DNA from: a virus
Strand: one strand, 5' to 3'
Length of the DNA: 24,553 nt
IMG/VR virus record: IMGVR_UViG_3300021960_000486
Coordinates: 1 to 24,553 of that record
Both the position numbers and the translations under genes were made by a program. This document shows positions 8,063 to 19,626 of the stretch, piece after piece (position 1 is the stretch's first letter; each line of letters begins with the position of its first letter). The notes beneath the pieces are model-generated. The model was not told the DNA's origin. It saw only the letters and a program-made list of their open reading frames with translations, and did no database searches.

Positions 8063-8289
8063 GGTGCCACCTTCAGTGTTCCGCTATCATTCCATACAGT
8101 TCCTGATTCCAAACCTGTAGCAGAAGTTGGGAGATTTGTCAGCACTAACGTTGTATTCCTTCCTGCCCCAGGGTTTCTCTGATCCTGAACAAAAAGCGAA
8201 AAAGCTCTTATAACTTCACTAAAATACTGCTGGCTATACTCAGCAGGTGGGACGGGGAAATATGGTGCTACTGTATCTGGTGATGCCAT
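8059..8289 (-). CDS. Small structural protein next to the tail hub
   Basis: 76 residues from ATG at 8289 (MASPDTVAPYFPVPPAEYSQ). A start 17 codons further upstream is possible but would overlap the tail hub by about 50 bases, and the TAATG junction at 8289 matches the pattern elsewhere here. The N-terminal half is a Pro-rich segment followed by a helix (YFSEVIRAFSLFVQDQ). The C-terminal half looks like short beta strands with NLPTSATGLESGTVWNDSGT, a pattern common in small phage tail-associated proteins (the GLxxGTVWND motif). I do not recognise a named family. The position directly after the gp10-like hub suggests a tail or head-tail accessory. Confidence 0.65.
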   Translation of the reverse strand: MASPDTVAPYFPVPPAEYSQQYFSEVIRAFSLFVQDQRNPGAGRNTTLVLTNLPTSATGLESGTVWNDSGTLKVAP

Positions 8290-10232
8290 TATTTTCTCCC
8301 ATCTGGCCTGATGTTTATACGTGGCGAACCAAGTCTCCAAGCCACGCCAGCAGCATCGGAATCAATCTTAAAGGTCATTGACCTACCCCTAAGCCTTACA
8401 AAAACTTGCTCAGTGAACTGCTCTACTGGCACAGAGGCAACCTTAGACACAGCTTCAGCATCTGTCTTTGTATAATTACCCCCAGGGGCGTTCCTAGCTT
8501 TTAGCGTCATGTTAACAAGTGGAGTTGCTGCAGTAGAATCTCTGAATGTCACATCAGGTATAATCTTATCCACAAAGCTAAAGTTGTAGCCGTCATCAAT
8601 ATCAAATTGGCTAGACTCTATGTAAGCAGAAATAGCGGAAGCTGGGCTTGTACTGCCATCATCGATGCCGTTTTCATGGTAATACAAATGTCCATCTAGT
8701 GCCGCACCAATTGGATAGTCAAAGACACCGCGATCAATCCACGCTGTCCTTGTCATCGATCCAACGTACCAGATGTTCTGATCGTAATTATACACAACGT
8801 AGCTATCTATATTGTTGTCTGCATTCGTTTCATCTGTTGATGGGTAAAACCACCACACTTCAGAGTACGAAGTATTAACAGAAGCAAAAACTTTTTCCTG
8901 CTGGTTTATATCAAACCTACTAAAGACATAATCTTTAACACTGCATGGAAGCTTTTGAACTGAACCTGTATATACATAGAACTCATTGCGCCCCATCCAG
9001 AAGACACTATCACCCACTGGCACAGCAGCTTTTGGAGACATGATCGTCGTGTTTTGAGATACAGTTGTTAAACCAAATTGGTTAGGTGGCCCAAGAAACT
9101 GCAAAGTACTCAAAGATGTATCTGTAAACACAAGTGTTTGCTGTCGTGTTTCAACGGCTTGTATAATCTCAGAGCCTGATCCAACGGGTAAGTCCCCCGC
9201 TGTATTTGTTGTGCTTGTGATATCCCAATCAGTTAAGCTGCCTTGAGATGAGAAGCGTATTAGTAATGGGTCTTGATCAGAAGAACCTTGAGCATTACAG
9301 CCAAAGGCAATGATGTGTCTATTTGTATCTGACACTAAAACTTGCTTTGCGACTGTAGGTGTTTGAGAAGCACCTCCAATTGACGAAAGCTCTACAGCAC
9401 GATTAAAACTAGAACTCGACGCACTTCGATCCCAGTAATAGATACCACCATTTCGCACATTTATGAGAAGGTCTTCTCCAAAGTTGTCGTGAGTCCATAG
9501 ACGCAGCTTATCTGTAACAAGACTGATGCTTGCAGAAGACCCCCAAGTACCACGGTTAAAGGGGCCAACACCCCAACCCGTACCAACAACAGAAGTGTCC
9601 AGACCAACATTAATTTGATACGCGCCAACAGTTGCAGTGCCGCCGCCAGGACTTCCCGATACATCTGAAGAATTTGCGTTGACAAGAGTAGGCGTAAGAA
9701 CACCGTCAATTGTGATCTCATCTATCGTGGCAACTTCTCGTGCTTGTATCTTGTAGTTGTCGTCGTCAACAATCTCTACAATTTGGTATTCTTGATTTAA
9801 AATATCAGCAGTGATGTTTCCCCCTAGAGAAACGGCACCACTAAACGTAACAAAATCATATTGCACTGCGCCATGTGCGGTGTCGTTGACTGTCAGTGTT
9901 GATGAATCAAGTGTCGCAGAAAAAGTTACATCCCCTGCAGCCGTTGTCGCGCGTATGGGAGTTATGTCGTTATATGCACCCCCCTGCTCGATGTAGTACT
10001 TCAAGTGAGTGCCTACCCCCACAAACTCAGAGTCATCTGTTGCTCTCCACGCATGCAATGCACGGCAGCTCCCCAAGAAAGACTTAACATAAATGCGTAT
10101 CCAGCCACCAATCTTCTCTGGGAACCCAGAACGAAACCTGACCTTATCGCAGTCGTACCAGCCGCCTTCGTTTGTATAGGAAGTCGTTTCTTTATTGATC
10201 CCAGGATTGAACTGTAGCTTTGATAAAGGCAT
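8289..10232 (-). CDS. Tail hub protein, P22 gp10-like packaged-DNA stabilisation protein
   Basis: 647 residues. The ATG at 10232 overlaps the upstream stop (TAATG). The N-terminus MPLSKLQFNPGINKETTSYT followed by GGWYDCDKVRFRSGFPEKIG is highly characteristic of the large marine-podovirus group related to P22 gp10 (Pfam Phage_stabilise). In P22 this protein forms the hexameric hub that closes the portal and carries the tailspikes and needle. The rest is beta-rich with blade-like repeats containing W motifs (for example RLWTHDNFGEDLLINVRNGG, EVWWFYPSTDE, NIWYVGSMTRTAWIDRG), in keeping with a beta-propeller core. Residues about 95-215 are an insertion rich in Thr, Val and Asp that may decorate the hub. 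It sits directly after the fibre gene block, whose products may attach to it. Confidence 0.78.
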   Translation of the reverse strand: MPLSKLQFNPGINKETTSYTNEGGWYDCDKVRFRSGFPEKIGGWIRIYVKSFLGSCRALHAWRATDDSEFVGVGTHLKYYIEQGGAYNDITPIRATTAAGDVTFSATLDSSTLTVNDTAHGAVQYDFVTFSGAVSLGGNITADILNQEYQIVEIVDDDNYKIQAREVATIDEITIDGVLTPTLVNANSSDVSGSPGGGTATVGAYQINVGLDTSVVGTGWGVGPFNRGTWGSSASISLVTDKLRLWTHDNFGEDLLINVRNGGIYYWDRSASSSSFNRAVELSSIGGASQTPTVAKQVLVSDTNRHIIAFGCNAQGSSDQDPLLIRFSSQGSLTDWDITSTTNTAGDLPVGSGSEIIQAVETRQQTLVFTDTSLSTLQFLGPPNQFGLTTVSQNTTIMSPKAAVPVGDSVFWMGRNEFYVYTGSVQKLPCSVKDYVFSRFDINQQEKVFASVNTSYSEVWWFYPSTDETNADNNIDSYVVYNYDQNIWYVGSMTRTAWIDRGVFDYPIGAALDGHLYYHENGIDDGSTSPASAISAYIESSQFDIDDGYNFSFVDKIIPDVTFRDSTAATPLVNMTLKARNAPGGNYTKTDAEAVSKVASVPVEQFTEQVFVRLRGRSMTFKIDSDAAGVAWRLGSPRINIRPDGRK

Positions 10233-11236
10233 TAGACGTTACCCTCTGTGACAAGGAATCGTGTCGCGCTCAAAGCCCTTCCGACTTTTCTACCGCTGGC
10301 ACTTGATGTTGTAAGACTACCATCATCTGCAAGGTAATACACGGAGTTTGTAGTCAACCCTGTTTGATTTGTATCTACATACCCTCTTGTCTGTATAAAC
10401 CCATCTGCCGTATCTGATATTGCTTTTGCTGCTATTCCCAACCAGTCATCTGCGTTTGCGGAAACCGTGGTTACTGTGGACACAGTGCCATTAGAATTAA
10501 GAGCAACAACATCTCCAGCAGATATCGCACCGCTTGCTGTATACTCCTGAACTGTCTGAGTGGCGAAAGAAAGCGTTCCAGAACCATTTGTTATGACTAT
10601 CTGGTTCGCCGCGCCATCTGATGTAGGCAGGGTAAACGCAGTTACAAATGACTGCAAGTTTGCATCATAGGCTAGAATATCTGTCCCAATAACAGTGCCT
10701 AGTGCTGTCCTTGCATCAGATGCCGTAGATGAACTCGTACCGCCATCGGCAACAAGAAGATCGGTTATACCTGTAATCGTGCCACCAGTAATTGATACAG
10801 TAGACCCTAGAGAAAACGAATCTGAAACATTTACACATTGCGCACCAGACCCAGCACCGTCTGCGTATATAACACCATTTTTATCTGCAGGAACCGTAGC
10901 ATCTCCACCTGTACCCTGCGTAAAGGTTAAGGTCTGCCCAATGTTATTCACAATGTAGTAGGCTTTACCAACTGTGTTTGGACTAATCGTAACCGTAACG
11001 CCTGCAGAAGGAGAGCCATTAAACTTTATAACACTAAAATTACCAGTGGATAGAGTGGCATCCGTTGTTGTAAGCGTATATGTTGTATCGCTTGAAGATA
11101 TAGCAACATTGACGCTGCCATCTAACGCACGATCAATAGTGTCAAAGTTTAGGTTTAGAGAGTTGCCCCATTCGCCACTCTCCTCGCCATCAGCAACTTT
11201 CTCTATTGCAAGATTTGCTGTAAAGGTACTTGACAT
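10232..11236 (-). CDS. Tail fibre, N-type A without propeller (A-C form)
   Basis: 334 residues, ATG at 11236 overlapping the stop of the 737-residue fibre (TAATG). Residues 1-40 (FTANLAIEKVADGEESGEWG then NFDTIDRALDG) match the N-terminus of the 737-residue protein (GALPTSWGAVTNTNFDIIDR). This N-terminus is common in marine phage fibres and is probably the virion-attachment end. Then come a beta-rich region (40-140), a GGTITGITDLLVADGGT...SDARTALG segment (151-180) and DANLQSFVTAFTLPTSDG (191-208). From about 236 it has the shared C-terminal module: GAISAGDVVALNSNGTVS, DDWLGIAAKAISDTADG, TGLTTNSVYYL and KVGRALSATRFLVTEGNV. The two halves of this module are adjacent, with no propeller between them. 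Function: probable host-recognition appendage. Confidence 0.78.
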   Translation of the reverse strand: MSSTFTANLAIEKVADGEESGEWGNSLNLNFDTIDRALDGSVNVAISSSDTTYTLTTTDATLSTGNFSVIKFNGSPSAGVTVTISPNTVGKAYYIVNNIGQTLTFTQGTGGDATVPADKNGVIYADGAGSGAQCVNVSDSFSLGSTVSITGGTITGITDLLVADGGTSSSTASDARTALGTVIGTDILAYDANLQSFVTAFTLPTSDGAANQIVITNGSGTLSFATQTVQEYTASGAISAGDVVALNSNGTVSTVTTVSANADDWLGIAAKAISDTADGFIQTRGYVDTNQTGLTTNSVYYLADDGSLTTSSASGRKVGRALSATRFLVTEGNV

Positions 11237-13449
11237 TATGCGTTTCCTTCAGTCACCAGAAGTTCTGTTGCAGATATAGCCTTTCCTATTTTGCCGTATG
11301 TTGTTGATGTAGAGGACAGCGCACCTGTTGACGAAACATAGTAAACTGTTCCCGCTGTTAAACCTGATTGTTGATCATTGACCCCGCCAACAACTGTGAC
11401 CAATCCAGAGCCTGCATCCGATATTGCTTCAGTAGAAACGCCAACCCAATCACCTGCATCTGTTGTTACAGTTGGGGCGGTTACCACAGAGGTTCTGTAT
11501 TCGCTTGCATCATTCGCGGTATCTGAAGTTGCGTAGATTATCTTATTGTTTGTACCGTCTACAACTGCAGCCATTTCAACATTTGATGTGCCAGTGCTTA
11601 GTGAAGTTAAGGCCGCTGCCGTTCCAAAGGTATAAGAATTTCCTGAATCATAGCTCGCTACAGATAGCTGCGCTGTACTATTGTAACCAGATGTAAAATG
11701 GTACAATCGATTGGAGTTAGAGTCATATAGAATTTCTCTTCTCTGGTTTGTCGTAAACGACAGTGCAGATGTATTTCTCGCGCCCGTGTCTGAACCAGAC
11801 GCTTTTATATAAACAAATTCACCTTGAGCAGCGGCGTATCGATTGGCAGATGAATCATATGCAATGCTCATAGCTTCGTAACCAGAGCTAGATATTGTTG
11901 ATGTATTCATATTAACTTGGCTTATAACGTTTATGTCTGCTCCGACTGTATCAACCTCTAATTCAACAAGAGTACATCCACTAAATCTGTCTTCAGTCCT
12001 GAACATAAACGCAAAATAGCCGTCATCACTATTATAAACTAAATTTGATATAGCAACTTCATCACTTATATTAACGCTATACTGGTAGTAGCTGTAATTT
12101 GAACTCCAAGTTATGCCGCCAGACCCATCAGAAACTCCATAAACTAAATATACACGAGGCACAGAGTTTCCAGTCGAAGCATCTCTAACGATAACAATAT
12201 ATACAAATCTATTGTTTGTAGGATCATACCCTAAAGATGCAGGAAAATTGCTGGAATAATCTCTTGTCATGTAACCTGGAGATGCACTGTAAATATAGCC
12301 TCCCCCAAAGTTTGTTGGCACAGATATAGAGCTTGAACCGAAAGTAATCGTAGTACCTGAAACGGTAGCTGTGAATATTCTTGGATCGCCCAAAGAACAT
12401 AATATCTGGACTTCGTTGCGATCTGTATCAACAACTGCATCTCTTACTATATGGGCCGAAGGGCTTGCATAGCCCGTTGATACAGTTGATGCTGTCGCCC
12501 AAGAAATAGAAGTGCCGCTTACTGTGCCTACAGCTCCATACAATGTAGAACTTCCAGAAGCTGGCCTATCAATCCAGAATGCAAGAATTTTTCCACTATT
12601 CGGTTCATGTACCAACGCAACAGGTTCAGTCACATCTAAACCATAAACCGCTGAACCTATGGATGGCGCACTATCACTTTGGCTTACAGTGCTTACTGTT
12701 CCATCTGTGTTTAAGACAACAACATCTCCTGCGGAAACTGCACCTGTGGCAGTAAAGGTTGTAGTTCCTGCCACCCTTTGAGCTTCAAAAGATAACGTTC
12801 CAGACCCGTTTGTCGTGAGAACCTGATTGGCTGTGCCGTCTGATGTAGGCAACGTGAAGGCTGTAACAAACGACTGAAGGTTTGCGTCATACGCAAGTAC
12901 GTCTGTACCTATCGCTACCCCTAAGTTTGTTCTGGCATCTGATGCAGATGAAGCTCCTGTCCCGCCATCAGCAACTGCAAGATCAGTAATGCCCGTAATA
13001 GAACCGCCTGTAATAGTAACATCACTAAAGGATAGGTCACCTGTAATGTCTGTAACTGCAGCACTTGCACCTGCGCCATCACAGTAAATGATTTTGCTTG
13101 TTCCGCTTGGAACAGTAACATTTGCACCAGAACCTTGCGTAAAAATAACATCCTGTGCAGTTGTGCTATTCTGCACGATATAAACCTTTTGAGAATCTGA
13201 TGGAGACACCGTTATAGTGTGGTCATTGTCAGGTGTACCCGTAAGAACCAAGACACGGTACATTCCGTCCGACAATGTTCCGTCTGTCGTGGACAAAGTG
13301 GACGTTGCGCCAGAAAGTGCAATTGAACCAATTCCGCTGATTGCACGGTCAATGATATCAAAGTTCGTGTTTGTTACAGCGCCCCAACTCGTCGGCAACG
13401 CGCCAGTAGCAATCTTATAAATCCCTGTGTTCGTTGTATAGGTTGCCAT
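11236..13449 (-). CDS. Tail fibre, N-type A with inserted seven-repeat propeller (A-P-C form)
   Basis: 737 residues, ATG at 13449 with AAAGG upstream, 11 bases after the repeat-protein stop. Residues 1-255 are the same architecture as the 334-residue protein: attachment segment, beta-rich region, SITGITDLAVADGGTG...SDARTNLG (150-177), DANLQSFVTAFTLPTSDG (188-205), then GAVSAGDVVVLNTDGTVS (236-253). Where that protein continues directly to DDWLG, this one has about 390 extra residues (roughly 270-660) with seven blade-like repeats, each marked by a YD..xNR/K-type hairpin at about 280, 340, 408, 471, 530, 574 and 630. It then resumes the shared module with GDWVGVSTEAISDAGSG, NDQQSGLTAGTVYYV and KIGKAISATELLVTEGNA. 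Seven blades suggest a lectin-like propeller carrying receptor specificity. The fibre role is well supported; the propeller fold is inferred by eye. Confidence 0.78.
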   Translation of the reverse strand: MATYTTNTGIYKIATGALPTSWGAVTNTNFDIIDRAISGIGSIALSGATSTLSTTDGTLSDGMYRVLVLTGTPDNDHTITVSPSDSQKVYIVQNSTTAQDVIFTQGSGANVTVPSGTSKIIYCDGAGASAAVTDITGDLSFSDVTITGGSITGITDLAVADGGTGASSASDARTNLGVAIGTDVLAYDANLQSFVTAFTLPTSDGTANQVLTTNGSGTLSFEAQRVAGTTTFTATGAVSAGDVVVLNTDGTVSTVSQSDSAPSIGSAVYGLDVTEPVALVHEPNSGKILAFWIDRPASGSSTLYGAVGTVSGTSISWATASTVSTGYASPSAHIVRDAVVDTDRNEVQILCSLGDPRIFTATVSGTTITFGSSSISVPTNFGGGYIYSASPGYMTRDYSSNFPASLGYDPTNNRFVYIVIVRDASTGNSVPRVYLVYGVSDGSGGITWSSNYSYYQYSVNISDEVAISNLVYNSDDGYFAFMFRTEDRFSGCTLVELEVDTVGADINVISQVNMNTSTISSSGYEAMSIAYDSSANRYAAAQGEFVYIKASGSDTGARNTSALSFTTNQRREILYDSNSNRLYHFTSGYNSTAQLSVASYDSGNSYTFGTAAALTSLSTGTSNVEMAAVVDGTNNKIIYATSDTANDASEYRTSVVTAPTVTTDAGDWVGVSTEAISDAGSGLVTVVGGVNDQQSGLTAGTVYYVSSTGALSSTSTTYGKIGKAISATELLVTEGNA
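11470..12642 (-). repeat. Seven-unit propeller-like insert in the 737-residue fibre
   Basis: Residues about 270-660 contain seven units starting near HEPNSGKILAFW, VDTDRNEVQILC, YDPTNNRFVYIV, YNSDDGYFAFMF, YDSSANRYAAAQ, YDSNSNRLYHFT and VDGTNNKIIYAT. Spacing is 44-68 residues. The units are too diverged at the DNA level to be a recent tandem repeat. The limits are approximate, set by where the sequence departs from and rejoins the shared fibre module. Confidence 0.65.
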
Positions 13450-13460
13450 CTACTTTACCT

Positions 13461-14354
13461 TTACGCTGCTATGTCCGTCCAAGTTGTCCCTGGGTTAGGA
13501 GATATATTATTCCAAGTTGTACTATCCGTTGGATCAATCTCACTCCAAGTTGTTCCTGGGGACGGTGTAATTCCTCCCCACACTATCACAGTTCCTACGA
13601 CTCCGTCACCCTCTACTCCAACAGGAAGTACATTTGCGCTTCCGCTTACCGTAACATCACCCACCTCGCCTGTGGCTGCAACACCCGCGACATCGACAGT
13701 GATGTTAATTTGAACTGTAACTTGACCTACTTCACCTGTGGCTGCAAGGCCCGTTGGTTCGACAACCGCGCTACCCGTAGCAATGACCTCGCCTATAGCA
13801 CCTGTGGCCTCAACGCCAGTAACGTCTAGATTTGCGTCCGCGATAATCGTGACATCACCCACGGCACCTGTCGCGGCAACACCTGTGACCTCTATATCGA
13901 CATTAATTGCTACGGTAACGTCACCAACTGCGCCCGTTGCCTCAACACCCGTGACACCTACAACAGCATCACCTGTGACCGTAACATCACCGACTTCCCC
14001 TGTCGCGGCAACGCCTGTAACATCGGTCTGAGCAGATGCTTGTATTGTAGGAGTGCCAAGTTGCGCAGTCCCTGCAACGCCTGTTACGGTGAACAGAGCG
14101 TCACCAATAACGGTGACATCGCCCACGGCTCCCGTTGCCTCAACACCCGTAACGTCAACGATCTTCGGAATGTTGATTTCAATAGTGCCAATGGCACCTG
14201 TGGCAGCGACACCTGTAAGATTAACGACAGCATCGCCCGTAATTGTTACGGAACCAACGGCTCCTGTGGCTTCAACACCATTGACAGAAACCGCACTACT
14301 GGCGGCTCCTGCTCCTGCGTAGGTGTCTCCCGAATATGGGAAGAAGCCAAACAT
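13461..14354 (-). CDS. 22-residue-repeat beta-rich appendage protein
   Basis: 297 residues, ATG at 14354 with AGAGG upstream. After a short start (MFGFFPYSGDTYAGAGAASS), residues 22-263 are eleven consecutive 22-residue repeats around VTGVEATGAVGDVTVxGDA, with no gaps between units. The C-terminal 34 residues hold three shorter repeats, each with TTW (TTWSEI, TTWNNI, TTWTDI). The regular Val/Thr/Gly pattern with a conserved GVxATGxVG turn suggests a beta-solenoid or a fibrous stack of hairpins. Related VTGV-ATG repeat proteins are, as I recall, frequent in marine phage tail regions. It sits between the two fibre pairs, so a tail appendage or fibre-linking role is likely. No enzymatic motif is seen, and it carries neither the N-type A or B segment nor the shared C-module. 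Confidence 0.7.
   Translation of the reverse strand: MFGFFPYSGDTYAGAGAASSAVSVNGVEATGAVGSVTITGDAVVNLTGVAATGAIGTIEINIPKIVDVTGVEATGAVGDVTVIGDALFTVTGVAGTAQLGTPTIQASAQTDVTGVAATGEVGDVTVTGDAVVGVTGVEATGAVGDVTVAINVDIEVTGVAATGAVGDVTIIADANLDVTGVEATGAIGEVIATGSAVVEPTGLAATGEVGQVTVQINITVDVAGVAATGEVGDVTVSGSANVLPVGVEGDGVVGTVIVWGGITPSPGTTWSEIDPTDSTTWNNISPNPGTTWTDIAA
13566..14291 (-). repeat. Eleven in-frame 66-bp repeats in the solenoid-like protein
   Basis: The unit is 66 bases (22 codons), 11 copies in a row. Most copies keep GV-ATG-VG; copies 4 and 11 are the most diverged. The pattern continues on the opposite strand as several stop-free frames, which explains the cluster of plus-strand open frames over 13434-14468. 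The units are diverged and differ in third positions, so recombination-driven slippage has not been very recent. Confidence 0.9.
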
Positions 14355-14368
14355 TTACCTATTCCTCT

Positions 14369-14797
14369 TCACACATTTGCTTTTTCAATTAGTATTTCCG
14401 TTGCGGATATAGCCTTACCGACCTTATACGTTCCAGATGTAGAAAGACCGCCAGAAGTGTTGGCGTAGTAAACTGTTCCAGCCGTCAAGCCTGATTGCTG
14501 ATCGTTTGTACCAGTAAATATAGTTATTGTTCCTGTGGCTCCACTTGAGATAGCAGCAGTCGCAATACCCACCCAGTTTGCAATGTTGCTTGAGGAAACA
14601 ACACTTACTGTTCCAGCCGTATTTAACGCCACTACATTACCAGCAGATATGGCACCAGAAGCCACAAAGTCATACGTGCCGCCGCCGCCGACCCCTGCTG
14701 CTGAAATAGATGCAGCAGTTGTAGCATCCACAGAGGCTATGTTTGTTAACCCCTGAGTATCACTAATTACTTGTGTGCCGCCTACTTGTATAGCCAT
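14369..14797 (-). CDS. Short tail fibre, N-type B without propeller (B-C form)
   Basis: 142 residues, ATG at 14797 overlapping the TAA of the 513-residue fibre (TAATG). Residues 1-41 (MAIQVGGTQVISDTQGLTNI then ASVDATTAASISAAGVGGGG) are nearly identical to the N-terminus of that fibre. The rest is the shared C-terminal module: GAISAGNVVALNTAGTVSVV, NWVGIATAAIS, GTNDQQSGLTAGTVYYA and YKVGKAISATEILIEKANV. The two halves of the module are directly joined, so this is the propeller-less counterpart of its upstream neighbour. At DNA level the two N-termini share an exact 26-base block (14730-14755 and 16271-16296) amid many silent differences. It is probably a small fibre or a subunit that co-assembles with the long form; the latter is a guess. 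Confidence 0.75.
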   Translation of the reverse strand: MAIQVGGTQVISDTQGLTNIASVDATTAASISAAGVGGGGTYDFVASGAISAGNVVALNTAGTVSVVSSSNIANWVGIATAAISSGATGTITIFTGTNDQQSGLTAGTVYYANTSGGLSTSGTYKVGKAISATEILIEKANV

Positions 14798-16338
14798 TAG
14801 ACATTAGCCTCAGTAATAAGTAAATCTGTTGCAGACAAAGCTTTTCCTACCTTATAGGCACCTGCTGTTGTGGACAGCGTTCCATCGGGGGAGACATAAT
14901 AAACAGAACCTATCGTCAAACCTGTTTGCTGGTCATTTACACCACCTAAAACAGTTATTGAACCTGAAGCTGTGTCAGATATTGCTTGCGTAGACACTCC
15001 TATCCAATCAGCATAATTACTAGGGGCTAATGTAGCTGTGACATACGTCATCGTAGTGGAAGAAGTATCTCTTCGCCTATATACAGTATAAAATTGGTTT
15101 GCGTTTGAGTCGTATGTAACGGCTGGATACTGGCTTGGATAATAAGTATCCTCTAAACTTGCAGCCGTTCCAATTGAAAACGAAGTACCAGACATAGTTG
15201 CTGACACCCCTTGAAGGTAATAAGGAGAAGTACTGGGAACAAAGGAAACAAAAAATTTACCAGCAGAAGAACTGTACTCCGCACCAAGACTGGTGGCACC
15301 AGCTATGCTACCTACAGAAGCTGCCGTACCAAAACTAAGAGAAGTACCGCTTATTGTTACAGCATACGCAGATAGAGTTGGATAATTAGTTGAAAACAAA
15401 CCTATTTTATTATTTATAGTATCGTAAACTGCTTTTTTTGCATAAACAGTACCACTGTAATATGTGGTAATTGACCCTAAACTTATAGATGTACCACTTA
15501 CCGTTGCTACAAGAGCTTTTCCATAGTTACTGTTGTTGTTGTCACTGTAAAACATAGCAACTTTATCTTCGTCGGGATCATACACACAGGCATTAAATTC
15601 TGGTTCATTTGAAGTAAATTGAACAGACGTTCCAAAGCTTATAGATGTACCACTGACAGTGCCTACAATTGCCCTGCCTGTTTCATTGCCAAAATTATAC
15701 ATGGCAGTAAACTGTACAAAGACTTTGCCGCTGCCCATATGAGCAGCAGACATATAACCCCCTGCAAGTTCTCCAGTATCTACCTCTGACCCCCAACTTA
15801 TAGTTGTACCACTGCTGCTGACGGTTCCGACTCTTGCATATAAATTACTGCTTTGACCCCAAAAGGCTACAATCTTACCACTGCCCACGTAAACAATTTC
15901 AATATCATAACTCAACTGCGAAGAAGTGTCGGGTGAGTTGTCGCCCCCCCAAGTAACTGTAGTTCCACTAATACTGCCAACACGGAGTTTAAAATAGTTA
16001 CTTTCTTTATAGGCCGTTAAGACTCTACTATTTGTATCGTCATATATTAGCCTAGTGCCACTATAAAACGATTGATTAGGTGTGCTGTAAACACTCGCAA
16101 CTGTCGCAGGTGAGGTGTAACTATCCGACCCTTCTGCAACAGGACTCACTGTCCCATTACTGTTTAAAGCTACAACATCACCAGCAGAAATTGCACCATC
16201 AGCAGTAAAATCTACAGTACCACCGCCACCTACACCAGCCGCACTAATAGAAGCTGCTGTAGTTGCATCAACAGAGGCTATGTTTGTTAACCCCTGCGTA
16301 TTGCTAATTACCTGTGTACCGCCTACCTGTATAGCCAT
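14797..16338 (-). CDS. Tail fibre, N-type B with inserted seven-repeat propeller (B-P-C form)
   Basis: 513 residues, ATG at 16338 with GGAG about ten bases upstream, 18 bases after the S74 fibre stop. Residues 1-41 are the N-type B segment (MAIQVGGTQVISNTQGLTNI). GAISAGDVVALNSNGTVSPV (48-67) begins the shared module, which is then interrupted by about 365 residues. That insert has seven units of about 52 residues with hairpins near 98, 149, 199, 252, 304, 354 and 408, most ending in SGTSISFGT-type strands. The module resumes at ADWIGVSTQAISDTASGS (443-460) and runs to YKVGKALSATDLLITEANV. Function: likely receptor-binding fibre with a seven-bladed propeller. The insertion point is the same as in the 737-residue fibre although the propellers share little sequence. 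Confidence 0.78.
   Translation of the reverse strand: MAIQVGGTQVISNTQGLTNIASVDATTAASISAAGVGGGGTVDFTADGAISAGDVVALNSNGTVSPVAEGSDSYTSPATVASVYSTPNQSFYSGTRLIYDDTNSRVLTAYKESNYFKLRVGSISGTTVTWGGDNSPDTSSQLSYDIEIVYVGSGKIVAFWGQSSNLYARVGTVSSSGTTISWGSEVDTGELAGGYMSAAHMGSGKVFVQFTAMYNFGNETGRAIVGTVSGTSISFGTSVQFTSNEPEFNACVYDPDEDKVAMFYSDNNNSNYGKALVATVSGTSISLGSITTYYSGTVYAKKAVYDTINNKIGLFSTNYPTLSAYAVTISGTSLSFGTAASVGSIAGATSLGAEYSSSAGKFFVSFVPSTSPYYLQGVSATMSGTSFSIGTAASLEDTYYPSQYPAVTYDSNANQFYTVYRRRDTSSTTMTYVTATLAPSNYADWIGVSTQAISDTASGSITVLGGVNDQQTGLTIGSVYYVSPDGTLSTTAGAYKVGKALSATDLLITEANV
15019..16116 (-). repeat. Seven-unit propeller-like insert in the 513-residue fibre
   Basis: Residues about 75-440. Units begin near YDDTNSRVLTAY, VYVGSGKIVAFW, HMGSGKVFVQFT, YDPDEDKVAMFY, YDTINNKIGLFS, YSSSAGKFFVSF and YDSNANQFYTVY. 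They are about 52 residues apart, each followed by VSGTSISFG-like strands. The regularity is higher than in the 737-residue protein. The limits are approximate. Confidence 0.7.
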
Positions 16339-16356: not shown

Positions 16357-19300
16357 TTAGCCTTTAAGTTCCGCAACCTCTGCCTTGAGTTCATCAATCT
16401 GGGTTTGTTGTTCTTTGATTGCCTCAACCAAGTGGCCTATCATGCCAACATAGTTGATAGACTTCATACCTGTTTCTTCATCTGTTTGCACAACATCTGG
16501 TAAGATAGGCTCTACTTGCTGGGCGATAAAGCCGTGGCCTCTTGTGCCAGTGTCCTTCCAATCAAAAGATACACCTTCAAGCTGCGTAACATCTGCTAGT
16601 GCATTCTGAATGGGCTGGACGTTATCCTTCAGTCGAGCATCTGATGTGCTGTTTAGATCACCCGTAACCAGTACGTGCGGTGAACTGTTTTTTACTTCAA
16701 GACGTTCTGAGCCACCAACAACTACACGCCACTGATCTGCTGCGTGAAATTGATTGTACGTATTTGTATCATTATAGGCTGCAACACCATTTAAAACATA
16801 TAAATACCCATTGCTATCAAATCTTGCTTGGTTTTGATTATTTGGCCTAATAAATACATCGGAACCAGTGCCAGCTTGCACATAGGTATTTGTGTCTGTA
16901 TCCCCTTGTACAATCATGTAATCGTTAACGCCTGCAGCACTACGTTTTATGCCATGAAATTGAGCATCAGAGGCATACGCATTTCCAACTAATAAGCCAT
17001 TGGTTGAACCTGCTTTTTTATTAATAGGCCCGTAAGTGCTTTCTGTAGTTAAAACCTCCGAATCACTATAATACAATGCGACATATGCGTTGGCTCCACT
17101 AAAATCACATCTTAAAGCATTACGGTTTACACCGTCTGATCCTTCCCCTTGAAAAAAGAAATCGCCGCCAGAATGAGCAAAATTTTTAAAGATCATATTT
17201 GTACCATCAAAGTACTGACGATAATCGCTGCCAGTACCCATACGGAACGTCTTGTTGTCATTCATTAAGACATAGCCAGCACCGACCTCAATCTGCTCTG
17301 AATTAGCAGTCACAACACGCCATAAATTAGCTCCGTGGAACTGCATGTAAGTGTCAGTGTCACCATCGTGATAAATACGGTCACGTAGGTAGATGTCCTC
17401 AACATCGTTGATTACGTTTGCACCCAGTGTCAGTGTACCGTTGAGGGTCATACCCCCAAATGTTGGGCTGGATGTAGTAAGTACAGCTTGGTTAATAGAA
17501 CCTGCAATGTCTACGCCATCAACTGTGCCTGAAACTGTAATGTCGCCTGTGACATCAAGGGGCTTTAACGCATCAATACTATCTTCATTAAGGGTCAAAA
17601 TGTTTGTAAGAGTTGTAGCCGAACCACTAGTAACATTACCCAACAGTTCAAAATACATCTTTGCACCGCCAGCAGTTGCAACGTCCGTATTTACCTCAAT
17701 CCTACCTGAAGCACCATTTTGTTCAGGTACACCAGCTTTGTGGTTAAAAGTAATATTAGCATTACCGTAGCCATCATTATTAGTCAGTGAAACGCCACCA
17801 CTACCTCTGCCAGCAGTCAGATAACCACTCGTAGAATATTCACCTGTCCCAGACGTTTTAGCTGTAAGGTTATTAAACTGATGGGTGTGACTGTCATTCA
17901 CAACGACAATCGCATTGTATGTGCCGCTGACATCACCGCCGAATGTGGTGCTTGTGTTTAGGTAGTAACTACCCTGCTGTCCATCTAGTGTGTCAGCATC
18001 TAGGCCAGAGCCAGCGCCATCGTTGTTTGATGTCCAATAAGTCCCAGAGTATCCACTTATATCTGTAGCGGTAGTAGCATTGCCACTCAATGTCGCCGTA
18101 ATCGTACCCGCACTGAAGTTTCCTGACGCATCCCGCGCCACAACTTTAGATGCCGTATTTGCGGATGTCGCATCAACGTTAACCGTAACTGTACCAGACG
18201 TACCGCCGCCCGTAACATAATTACCCGCAGTAACACCTGTAATGTCACCCACATTTGTAGTATACCCAGCATCATTATTGAAGCCGCTGATGTTGATGTT
18301 GCCCTTGGTCAGCTTTCTTTGAACATTAGAAGTATTAACAACAGCAAAGAAATCTCCGTCTGCATCGGATGTTGATGTTGTCAGTTCGCTTAAATCCACT
18401 GCGACAGTGACGGTAGCCGTTTCACTTCCACCACCCGATACATCAATCAAGTTACCCGCAGTAATGTCTGCAACGTAGTTACCCGTGGTGTCTGTCCCAA
18501 GAGCTACAGAGTTTGCAGCAATCGTCGTTGCAATACTTACATTACCAGAGCCATCTACACCTGTCGCTGAACCAGTGACATCGCCAGTAAGGCTTACTGT
18601 TCTAGAGGTTTCCCAAGCAGTAGCGGTAGTAGCGTTGCCTACAAGATCAGCAGTAACTTGAGCGAACGTGACGTTGTCGGATGTTCCAACCGACTGCCCA
18701 ATTGCAATATCGTTGGCATTGACTGTAACGCCTGTCCCCGCACCCACGGCAAAGGTAGTGCCTGTAAGTGTAAGACCATCACCTGCAGAGTAAACTGTAG
18801 TTTCAGCAACTTCAGAAAACACAATGTCAGTTGTGCCAAAAATAATTTCCCCAGATGTTGTCATAACATCTAGATGACCTGCATTTGTATCGCCTTCCTT
18901 AATAAAAAAGGCATCCCCTTCACCAAGAGCGTCTGGGTCGGATGGGCCATAGCTGTCAGCATCTGTGGCACGGGTAAGCACCCAGTTGGTTGATGCAGAC
19001 CCTATATTTGTAACCGTATAAACGCCATTATGAGCTTGGTTGGTCTGATTTGATACAAGAACACGATCACTTACAACCATAGTCACGCTGTCAAGGACAA
19101 GCACAGCCTGAGTGCCTGAGTTAGTAAGCGTAGCACCTACACCTGACGTTCCGTTATCATAAGTGGCAGTCAGGTTACTTGGATGCTCTACACGAACAGG
19201 CGCATGATAATGTAGACCAGCCGCTGCAATCGTATCTACATACTGTTTTGTTGCGGCCTGTAAACTAGAAACGGGGTCTTGATTAAGTACTAGATTACCG

Positions 19301-19626
19301 CTTGCATCGAAGTGCGCTGATTTCCCCGCAGGTTGAGTAATGAAAACATCCGCATCGCCTGCAGTTAAATTTACTGCAGAGCCTGAGTTAGAACTCGCAA
19401 GCACCGTTGTACGAGCAAGAGTATTAGGTGTTCCCGTTGCAAAGGTTCCAAGCCCAACTTCCCATGCACCCGTGCTACCTTCAGTTAGGGCATAATAGGT
19501 CGTGTCTGCATTAGACAATGCAGTTCCAAAGGTTTGGAACCCCGCAGAGTTACCGTCTAAATCAAGCGCACCAGTGCCTGTTGTAGAGGTGGTTTGTTTT
19601 ACACGATCCTTAACAACTAATGCCAT
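16357..19626 (-). CDS. Large tail fibre with C-terminal S74 intramolecular chaperone
   Basis: 1089 residues, ATG at 19626 with AGGAG upstream. Residues about 120-150 (QAATKQYVDTIAAAGLHYHA) begin a domain often found in marine and cyanophage fibres; it runs to about 275 and includes HNGVYTVTNIG and DVMTTSGEIIFG. The middle is beta-helix-like with VGNATTATAWETSRTVSLTG and the classic GLDADTLDGQQGSYY motif. Further on, two similar units, DTDTYMQFHGANLWRVV and DTNTYNQFHAADQWRVV, flank the distal tip. Residues 994-1089 are a Peptidase_S74 domain: SDARLKDNV with Ser995 and Lys1000 in the spacing of the endoNF dyad, then GHGFIAQQVEPILPDVV and a coiled-coil tail. S74 domains aid trimer folding and then cut themselves off, probably just before Ser995. 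It is the main fibre candidate of this phage. Confidence 0.88.
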   Translation of the reverse strand: MALVVKDRVKQTTSTTGTGALDLDGNSAGFQTFGTALSNADTTYYALTEGSTGAWEVGLGTFATGTPNTLARTTVLASSNSGSAVNLTAGDADVFITQPAGKSAHFDASGNLVLNQDPVSSLQAATKQYVDTIAAAGLHYHAPVRVEHPSNLTATYDNGTSGVGATLTNSGTQAVLVLDSVTMVVSDRVLVSNQTNQAHNGVYTVTNIGSASTNWVLTRATDADSYGPSDPDALGEGDAFFIKEGDTNAGHLDVMTTSGEIIFGTTDIVFSEVAETTVYSAGDGLTLTGTTFAVGAGTGVTVNANDIAIGQSVGTSDNVTFAQVTADLVGNATTATAWETSRTVSLTGDVTGSATGVDGSGNVSIATTIAANSVALGTDTTGNYVADITAGNLIDVSGGGSETATVTVAVDLSELTTSTSDADGDFFAVVNTSNVQRKLTKGNINISGFNNDAGYTTNVGDITGVTAGNYVTGGGTSGTVTVNVDATSANTASKVVARDASGNFSAGTITATLSGNATTATDISGYSGTYWTSNNDGAGSGLDADTLDGQQGSYYLNTSTTFGGDVSGTYNAIVVVNDSHTHQFNNLTAKTSGTGEYSTSGYLTAGRGSGGVSLTNNDGYGNANITFNHKAGVPEQNGASGRIEVNTDVATAGGAKMYFELLGNVTSGSATTLTNILTLNEDSIDALKPLDVTGDITVSGTVDGVDIAGSINQAVLTTSSPTFGGMTLNGTLTLGANVINDVEDIYLRDRIYHDGDTDTYMQFHGANLWRVVTANSEQIEVGAGYVLMNDNKTFRMGTGSDYRQYFDGTNMIFKNFAHSGGDFFFQGEGSDGVNRNALRCDFSGANAYVALYYSDSEVLTTESTYGPINKKAGSTNGLLVGNAYASDAQFHGIKRSAAGVNDYMIVQGDTDTNTYVQAGTGSDVFIRPNNQNQARFDSNGYLYVLNGVAAYNDTNTYNQFHAADQWRVVVGGSERLEVKNSSPHVLVTGDLNSTSDARLKDNVQPIQNALADVTQLEGVSFDWKDTGTRGHGFIAQQVEPILPDVVQTDEETGMKSINYVGMIGHLVEAIKEQQTQIDELKAEVAELKG

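Follow-up and report, generated by a model that had tools for sequence, protein, structure and literature searches.

Four neighbouring genes in an uncultured, probably marine phage appear to encode trimeric beads of one bead-chain fibre, some of them bearing lectin-like propellers, with long and short forms sharing the fibre as successive or alternative beads; we give this reading a probability of about two in three. The stretch of DNA analysed (the window) is an entire IMG/VR contig of 24,553 nucleotides (24.5 kb) and is probably a piece of the virion-gene block of a short-tailed phage. Its other gene products include tail-hub-like proteins, a DNA ejection protein, an endolysin, and an S74-chaperone tail fibre. 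The four fibre genes are flanked on one side by the S74 fibre and on the other by a virion structural protein, arranged as follows, with L and S denoting long and short forms and L092, L094 and similar handles denoting related loci:

16357..19626, minus strand: S74-chaperone tail fibre, lying immediately upstream of L1; L094 and L100 likewise have it upstream of their type-B pair.
14797..16338, minus strand: L1, 513 aa; type-B N-terminus (residues 1-42) and a bead module split by a predicted seven-bladed propeller (about residues 69-440).
14369..14797, minus strand: S1, 142 aa; type-B N-terminus and a joined bead module (residues 43-142); orthologues in L092 and L094 are 91-92% identical.
13461..14354, minus strand: 297-aa repeat protein between the two pairs; 92% identical in L012, and adjoining the type-A gene there and in relatives.
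11236..13449, minus strand: L2, 737 aa; type-A N-terminus (residues 1-226) and a bead module split by a propeller (about residues 262-663).
10232..11236, minus strand: S2, 334 aa; type-A N-terminus and a joined bead module (residues 226-334) with a decoration-protein-like predicted fold.
8289..10232, minus strand: virion structural protein (phrog_3287), which ends the fibre block here and in relatives.

A sequence-only reading had described these genes as two long/short pairs, each pair with its own N-terminus and all four with one C-terminal module, split at a single point by a seven-unit insert in the long forms. The four open reading frames lie where that reading placed them, all on the minus strand, and its architecture holds. 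L1 and S1 are 88% identical over residues 1-67 (N-terminus z 34 against shuffles), L2 and S2 are 52-55% identical over about 255 residues (N-terminus z 50), and the C-half of the module, from DW/NW onward, aligns in all six pairs (z 17-32). Family HMMs find both module halves, c1 and c2, complete in every protein, separated by 375 aa in L1, 410 in L2, 5 in S1, and 7 in S2. The L1 insert is a predicted seven-bladed β-propeller; that of L2 comprises seven units by eye and is homologous to it (z 6.8). The long/short junctions are TAATG overlaps, as described, and the same overlap joins S2 to its downstream gene; it is thus not peculiar to the pairs. The pairs are also kept apart by the unrelated 297-aa protein, omitted from the earlier reading, which consists of short VTGVxATGxVGxVT repeats (13461-14354) and is conserved next to the type-A fibre gene in relatives.

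Direct searches returned little. Scanned singly against Pfam and PHROG, the four proteins gave almost no matches, with a cement-protein signal emerging only after many relatives were scanned. A collection of isolated-phage DNA contained nothing closely matching the fibre block; there, the S1-type module alone had no tblastn match, and another module matched MH319759 only. A related-locus search with S2 as query gave no match and no S2 orthologue, and a genome scan for hosts returned only two metagenome-assembled contigs.

The nature of the shared module emerged from structure prediction and profile comparison. When S2 was folded from an alignment of 36 relatives, residues 226-334 resembled phage head decoration proteins, with matches (54-58 residues) to the HFTV1 capsid-portal chain (Z 9.7), the phi29 head fibre gp8.5 (Z 9.2), and lambda gpD (Z 6.1). 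The monomer model leaves the relative placement of the two halves loose (Foldseek rmsd 12-13 Å for the whole module); each half alone matches, the C-half matching decoration proteins separately. Strands are predicted to follow one another in the same order in L1's split module as in S2's joined one, which argues against different folds in the long and short forms. The L1 model also contains a low-confidence hairpin at residues 3-11. A profile of 13 short forms, searched against the A-1(L)/ICBM2 ORF set, matched two proteins of the Anabaena cyanophage A-1(L), gp81 (38.9 bits, E 7e-12) and gp82C (E 3e-5); against all PDB chains the gp82 match had an E of 0.012. A PDB profile match to PCNA (3k4x) was discarded as a repeat artefact in which each stretch scores 7 bits. 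Trimers of gp81 and gp82C, modelled as homotrimers, stack head to tail, by way of N-terminal hairpins, in the bead chain of the A-1(L) neck fibre (PMC10966104), and because the profile matches these very proteins the C-module is best named a bead. Homology to a bead-chain fibre likewise suggests that the beads, themselves putatively trimeric, may stack head to tail in series, an option absent from the earlier reading.

Since the fold is common to head decoration proteins, a head or neck site is conceivable, with the beads decorating the capsid or collar as head or neck fibres. Most fold matches are indeed to head decoration proteins and the phi29 head fibre, and the A-1(L) homologues are neck fibres. 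A scan of S1 with PF09956 (Phage_cement_2, gathering cut-off 24 bits) gave no match, and the S1 orthologue in L092 scored 16.4, below the cut-off; only the bead of L093 passes, at 27.4. Against this placement, which we judge improbable, the genes lie in a tail-fibre block adjoining the S74 fibre, the L095 module follows an Mtd-like N-terminus, and the type-A N-terminus forms the start of tail-fibre genes in the cultured Roseobacter phages CRP-901 and CRP-902. Gene context and this N-terminus lead us to infer a tail location. Bead fibres need not be adsorption fibres, since no host binding was seen for the sugar-binding module of the distal A-1(L) protein gp80 (PMC10966104).

Folding of L1 from an alignment of 65 relatives (pLDDT 87.8) yielded a seven-bladed propeller whose closest structural matches are the sugar-binding lectins BP39L and PLL (Z about 31, 315 residues, rmsd 2.8). 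The likeness is one of predicted fold, at 10-14% identity, and the lectins are free-standing rather than inserts; the fibre propellers may nonetheless bind sugars. In several relatives, the blades are near-identical 52-aa units with six hypervariable codons on one face (L089 3892-5331; L161 4402-5685; L129 116-4630; L133 1732-6258; L167 470-2155). These codons fall in the DA/BC loops and show a nonsynonymous:synonymous ratio of 267:6 versus 197:624 elsewhere, the positions having been picked from these same blades; entropy over 142 non-redundant blades has its maxima at the same sites. The codons are mostly NNT/NNC, a pattern that recalls retroelement-driven diversification, and no reverse transcriptase (RVT_1) was found in 25 records, mostly fragments.

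That propellers are gained and lost at a fixed site, as the sequence-only reading had proposed, is now strongly supported. Among 198 related ORFs with both module halves (redundant entries included), the gap between halves was 3-11 aa in 19, 352-418 aa in 161, above 430 aa in 17 (730-769 in sixteen and 637 in the other), and 319 aa, or six units, in one. Insert length is therefore quantised into no propeller, one propeller or, in most of the 17 longest, two, besides the single six-unit form. Second inserts occupy other loops (after FIGMxxGAI, before LTxxxxYYV, or before KVGKA) and are in some cases propellers of a different type. The short gene of L121 and the second gene of L013 are 94.7% identical in DNA save for one in-frame 1098-bp insert, and the short gene of L089 and the second gene of L168 are 93% identical apart from an insert of about 1.1 kb. 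Near-identical genes thus differ by a single in-frame propeller, the product of a recent, single-step gain or loss. Well-supported branches in a tree of 158 distinct modules force at least seven changes of propeller state. Exchanging propellers would seem to let phages alter, in modular fashion, what they bind.

The short partner stays constant beside this turnover. Orthologues of S1 occur in L092 and L094, each behind the same kind of long gene, and across the three phages S1 retains 91-96% amino acid identity with dN/dS of about 0.07-0.1. The long partner in the same phages is 82-94% identical in its N-terminus, 70-76% in its C-half, and 29-38% in its propeller, against a shuffled-sequence baseline of 26% (maximum 31%). 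Within one phage, the two type-B N-termini share 87-93% protein identity while dS is about 1 or saturated, which indicates a duplication that is old and has been kept under constraint; the same dS values led us to reject a recent duplication or gene conversion. The short genes could instead be decaying, functionless remnants of long ones, in keeping with short forms being in the minority and arising repeatedly. The constraint on S1 across three phages, the intact frames, and the coupled start codons make this very improbable, and for S1 it is disfavoured.

Whether pairing is itself functional, as the earlier reading suggested, receives a divided answer. For the B pair the suggestion stands, on the old duplication and the constrained S1 of three phages. 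Long/short pairs do recur in relatives, but not as a rule: a search seeded with joined forms favours joined forms, and a type-A search without that bias found a short form in one of eight arrays. Gene order varies, and L100 carries propellers on both members of its B pair. At the B-pair position of L012, a locus otherwise much like the window, lies a different gene of 760 aa.

Complete non-redundant arrays numbered 31, with three module genes in 16, one in nine, two in five, and four in one (the window); neighbouring array genes mostly share a four-base overlap. Array positions 1, 2, and 3 are separate lineages, requiring 14 changes, whereas shuffling the labels inside each array gives 45 on average and never fewer than 35. 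A further possibility is therefore a mixed trimer, in which long and short proteins, or the three paralogues of relatives, form one heterotrimeric bead with zero to three, possibly different, propellers. The modal array size of three, the distinct lineage at each position, the fusion of three modules into a single L153 chain, the 88% shared B N-termini, and the trimeric state of fold relatives favour such an assembly. It sits poorly with the 2+2 genes of the window, the arrays of one or two, the four fused modules of L175, and the A-1(L) homologues modelled as homotrimers stacked in series (PMC10966104), and on balance we think it unlikely. An extension of the idea, which we regard as doubtful, would have marine phages assemble the products of three paralogous genes into a pseudo-symmetric heterotrimeric bead whose subunits display different exchangeable propellers, each at any one of four docking loops; if true, the bead would be a multi-specific lectin array, of which the long/short pairs here would be the two-gene version.

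Each gene might alternatively form its own homotrimeric fibre, long and short forms competing for an attachment site with a dose or decoy effect. In its favour, none of the four proteins lacks an N-terminus of its own, and the two in a pair are nearly alike. It is nevertheless a rather unlikely arrangement: a joined and a split module stand in tandem in the L174 chain, and translational coupling and conserved array positions suggest shared assembly. Beads in series are instead supported by L153, L175, and L174, which hold several modules in one chain. A common structure is supported by the type-A N-terminus, which is a gene of its own next to module genes in relatives, is fused in the window, and heads the CRP-901/902 fibre genes. 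Counting against the bead-chain reading, L1 and L2 each have their own N-terminus, unlike most relatives' module proteins, which are poor in N-terminal sequence.

Several further features of these loci were noted. The split bead module of L174 (5275-10262) spans two overlapping ORFs in different frames (NFLGIAL / MTTYADGATATIQ), reflecting a sequencing error or a programmed frameshift. In L049 (4058-4576), a likely HNH homing endonuclease, recognised by eye, separates the type-A gene from the bead array. At array position 1, L102 (5944-7059) and L130 (5944-7125) encode bare beads with long glycine-rich domains behind them, a further type of exchangeable end.

In the bead-chain reading that we prefer, the C-module would be a small trimer-forming bead domain of decoration-protein fold, kin of A-1(L) gp81 and gp82C. 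S1 and S2 would be this bead in bare form; in L1 and L2 one of its loops would carry a lectin-like propeller of seven blades, giving three propellers to a trimer. Through a common attachment N-terminus, long and short partners would join a single virion fibre, where they most likely follow one another in the chain or serve as alternatives to each other. The bare bead would then serve as structural spacer or adaptor, and the propeller bead as an exchangeable receptor-binding unit whose propellers present a variable binding face. Such a constant bead with plug-in propellers at defined loops would account for how many uncultured phages could switch adsorption specificity while the fibre is not rebuilt. 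It would also connect marine fibre genes that have been orphans with a bead-chain fibre already characterised, and explain several unnamed fibre genes together.

Propellers on phage receptor-binding trimers are already known (phi11, PMC4901313), as are bead-chain fibres; a search of open-licence papers turned up none describing propellers that sit as grafts in the loops of beads, vary in quantised steps and are exchanged. The gp82-gp81-gp80 neck fibre of A-1(L) has a homologous bead domain, anchor-plus-bead and bead-only proteins, and a multi-gene operon; unlike the fibre proposed here, it lacks a propeller, sits at the neck, and repeats one gp81 about 14 times rather than using paired long and short genes. 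Phage decoration and cement proteins (PF09956; gpD, SHP, the phi29 gp8.5 base, the HFTV1 capsid stabilisation protein) share the predicted module fold, whereas the window beads score below the Pfam cut-off, follow fibre N-termini, and have a domain inserted in a loop. The phi11 receptor-binding protein gp45 is likewise trimeric with one propeller per subunit, but that propeller is five-bladed, lies in line between stem and tower rather than in a bead loop, and belongs to a single gene (PMC4901313). Gene 49 of Lentibacter phage ICBM2 (AYP28108.1, 515 aa) has no short partner of the bead module, and it is flanked by other fibres, separated by chaperone-like genes; at this locus (L171 34029-38033), the fibre genes are interleaved with three small genes whose annotation is tail assembly chaperone. 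ICBM2 is nonetheless a cultured phage with the split-module and propeller architecture, open to testing.
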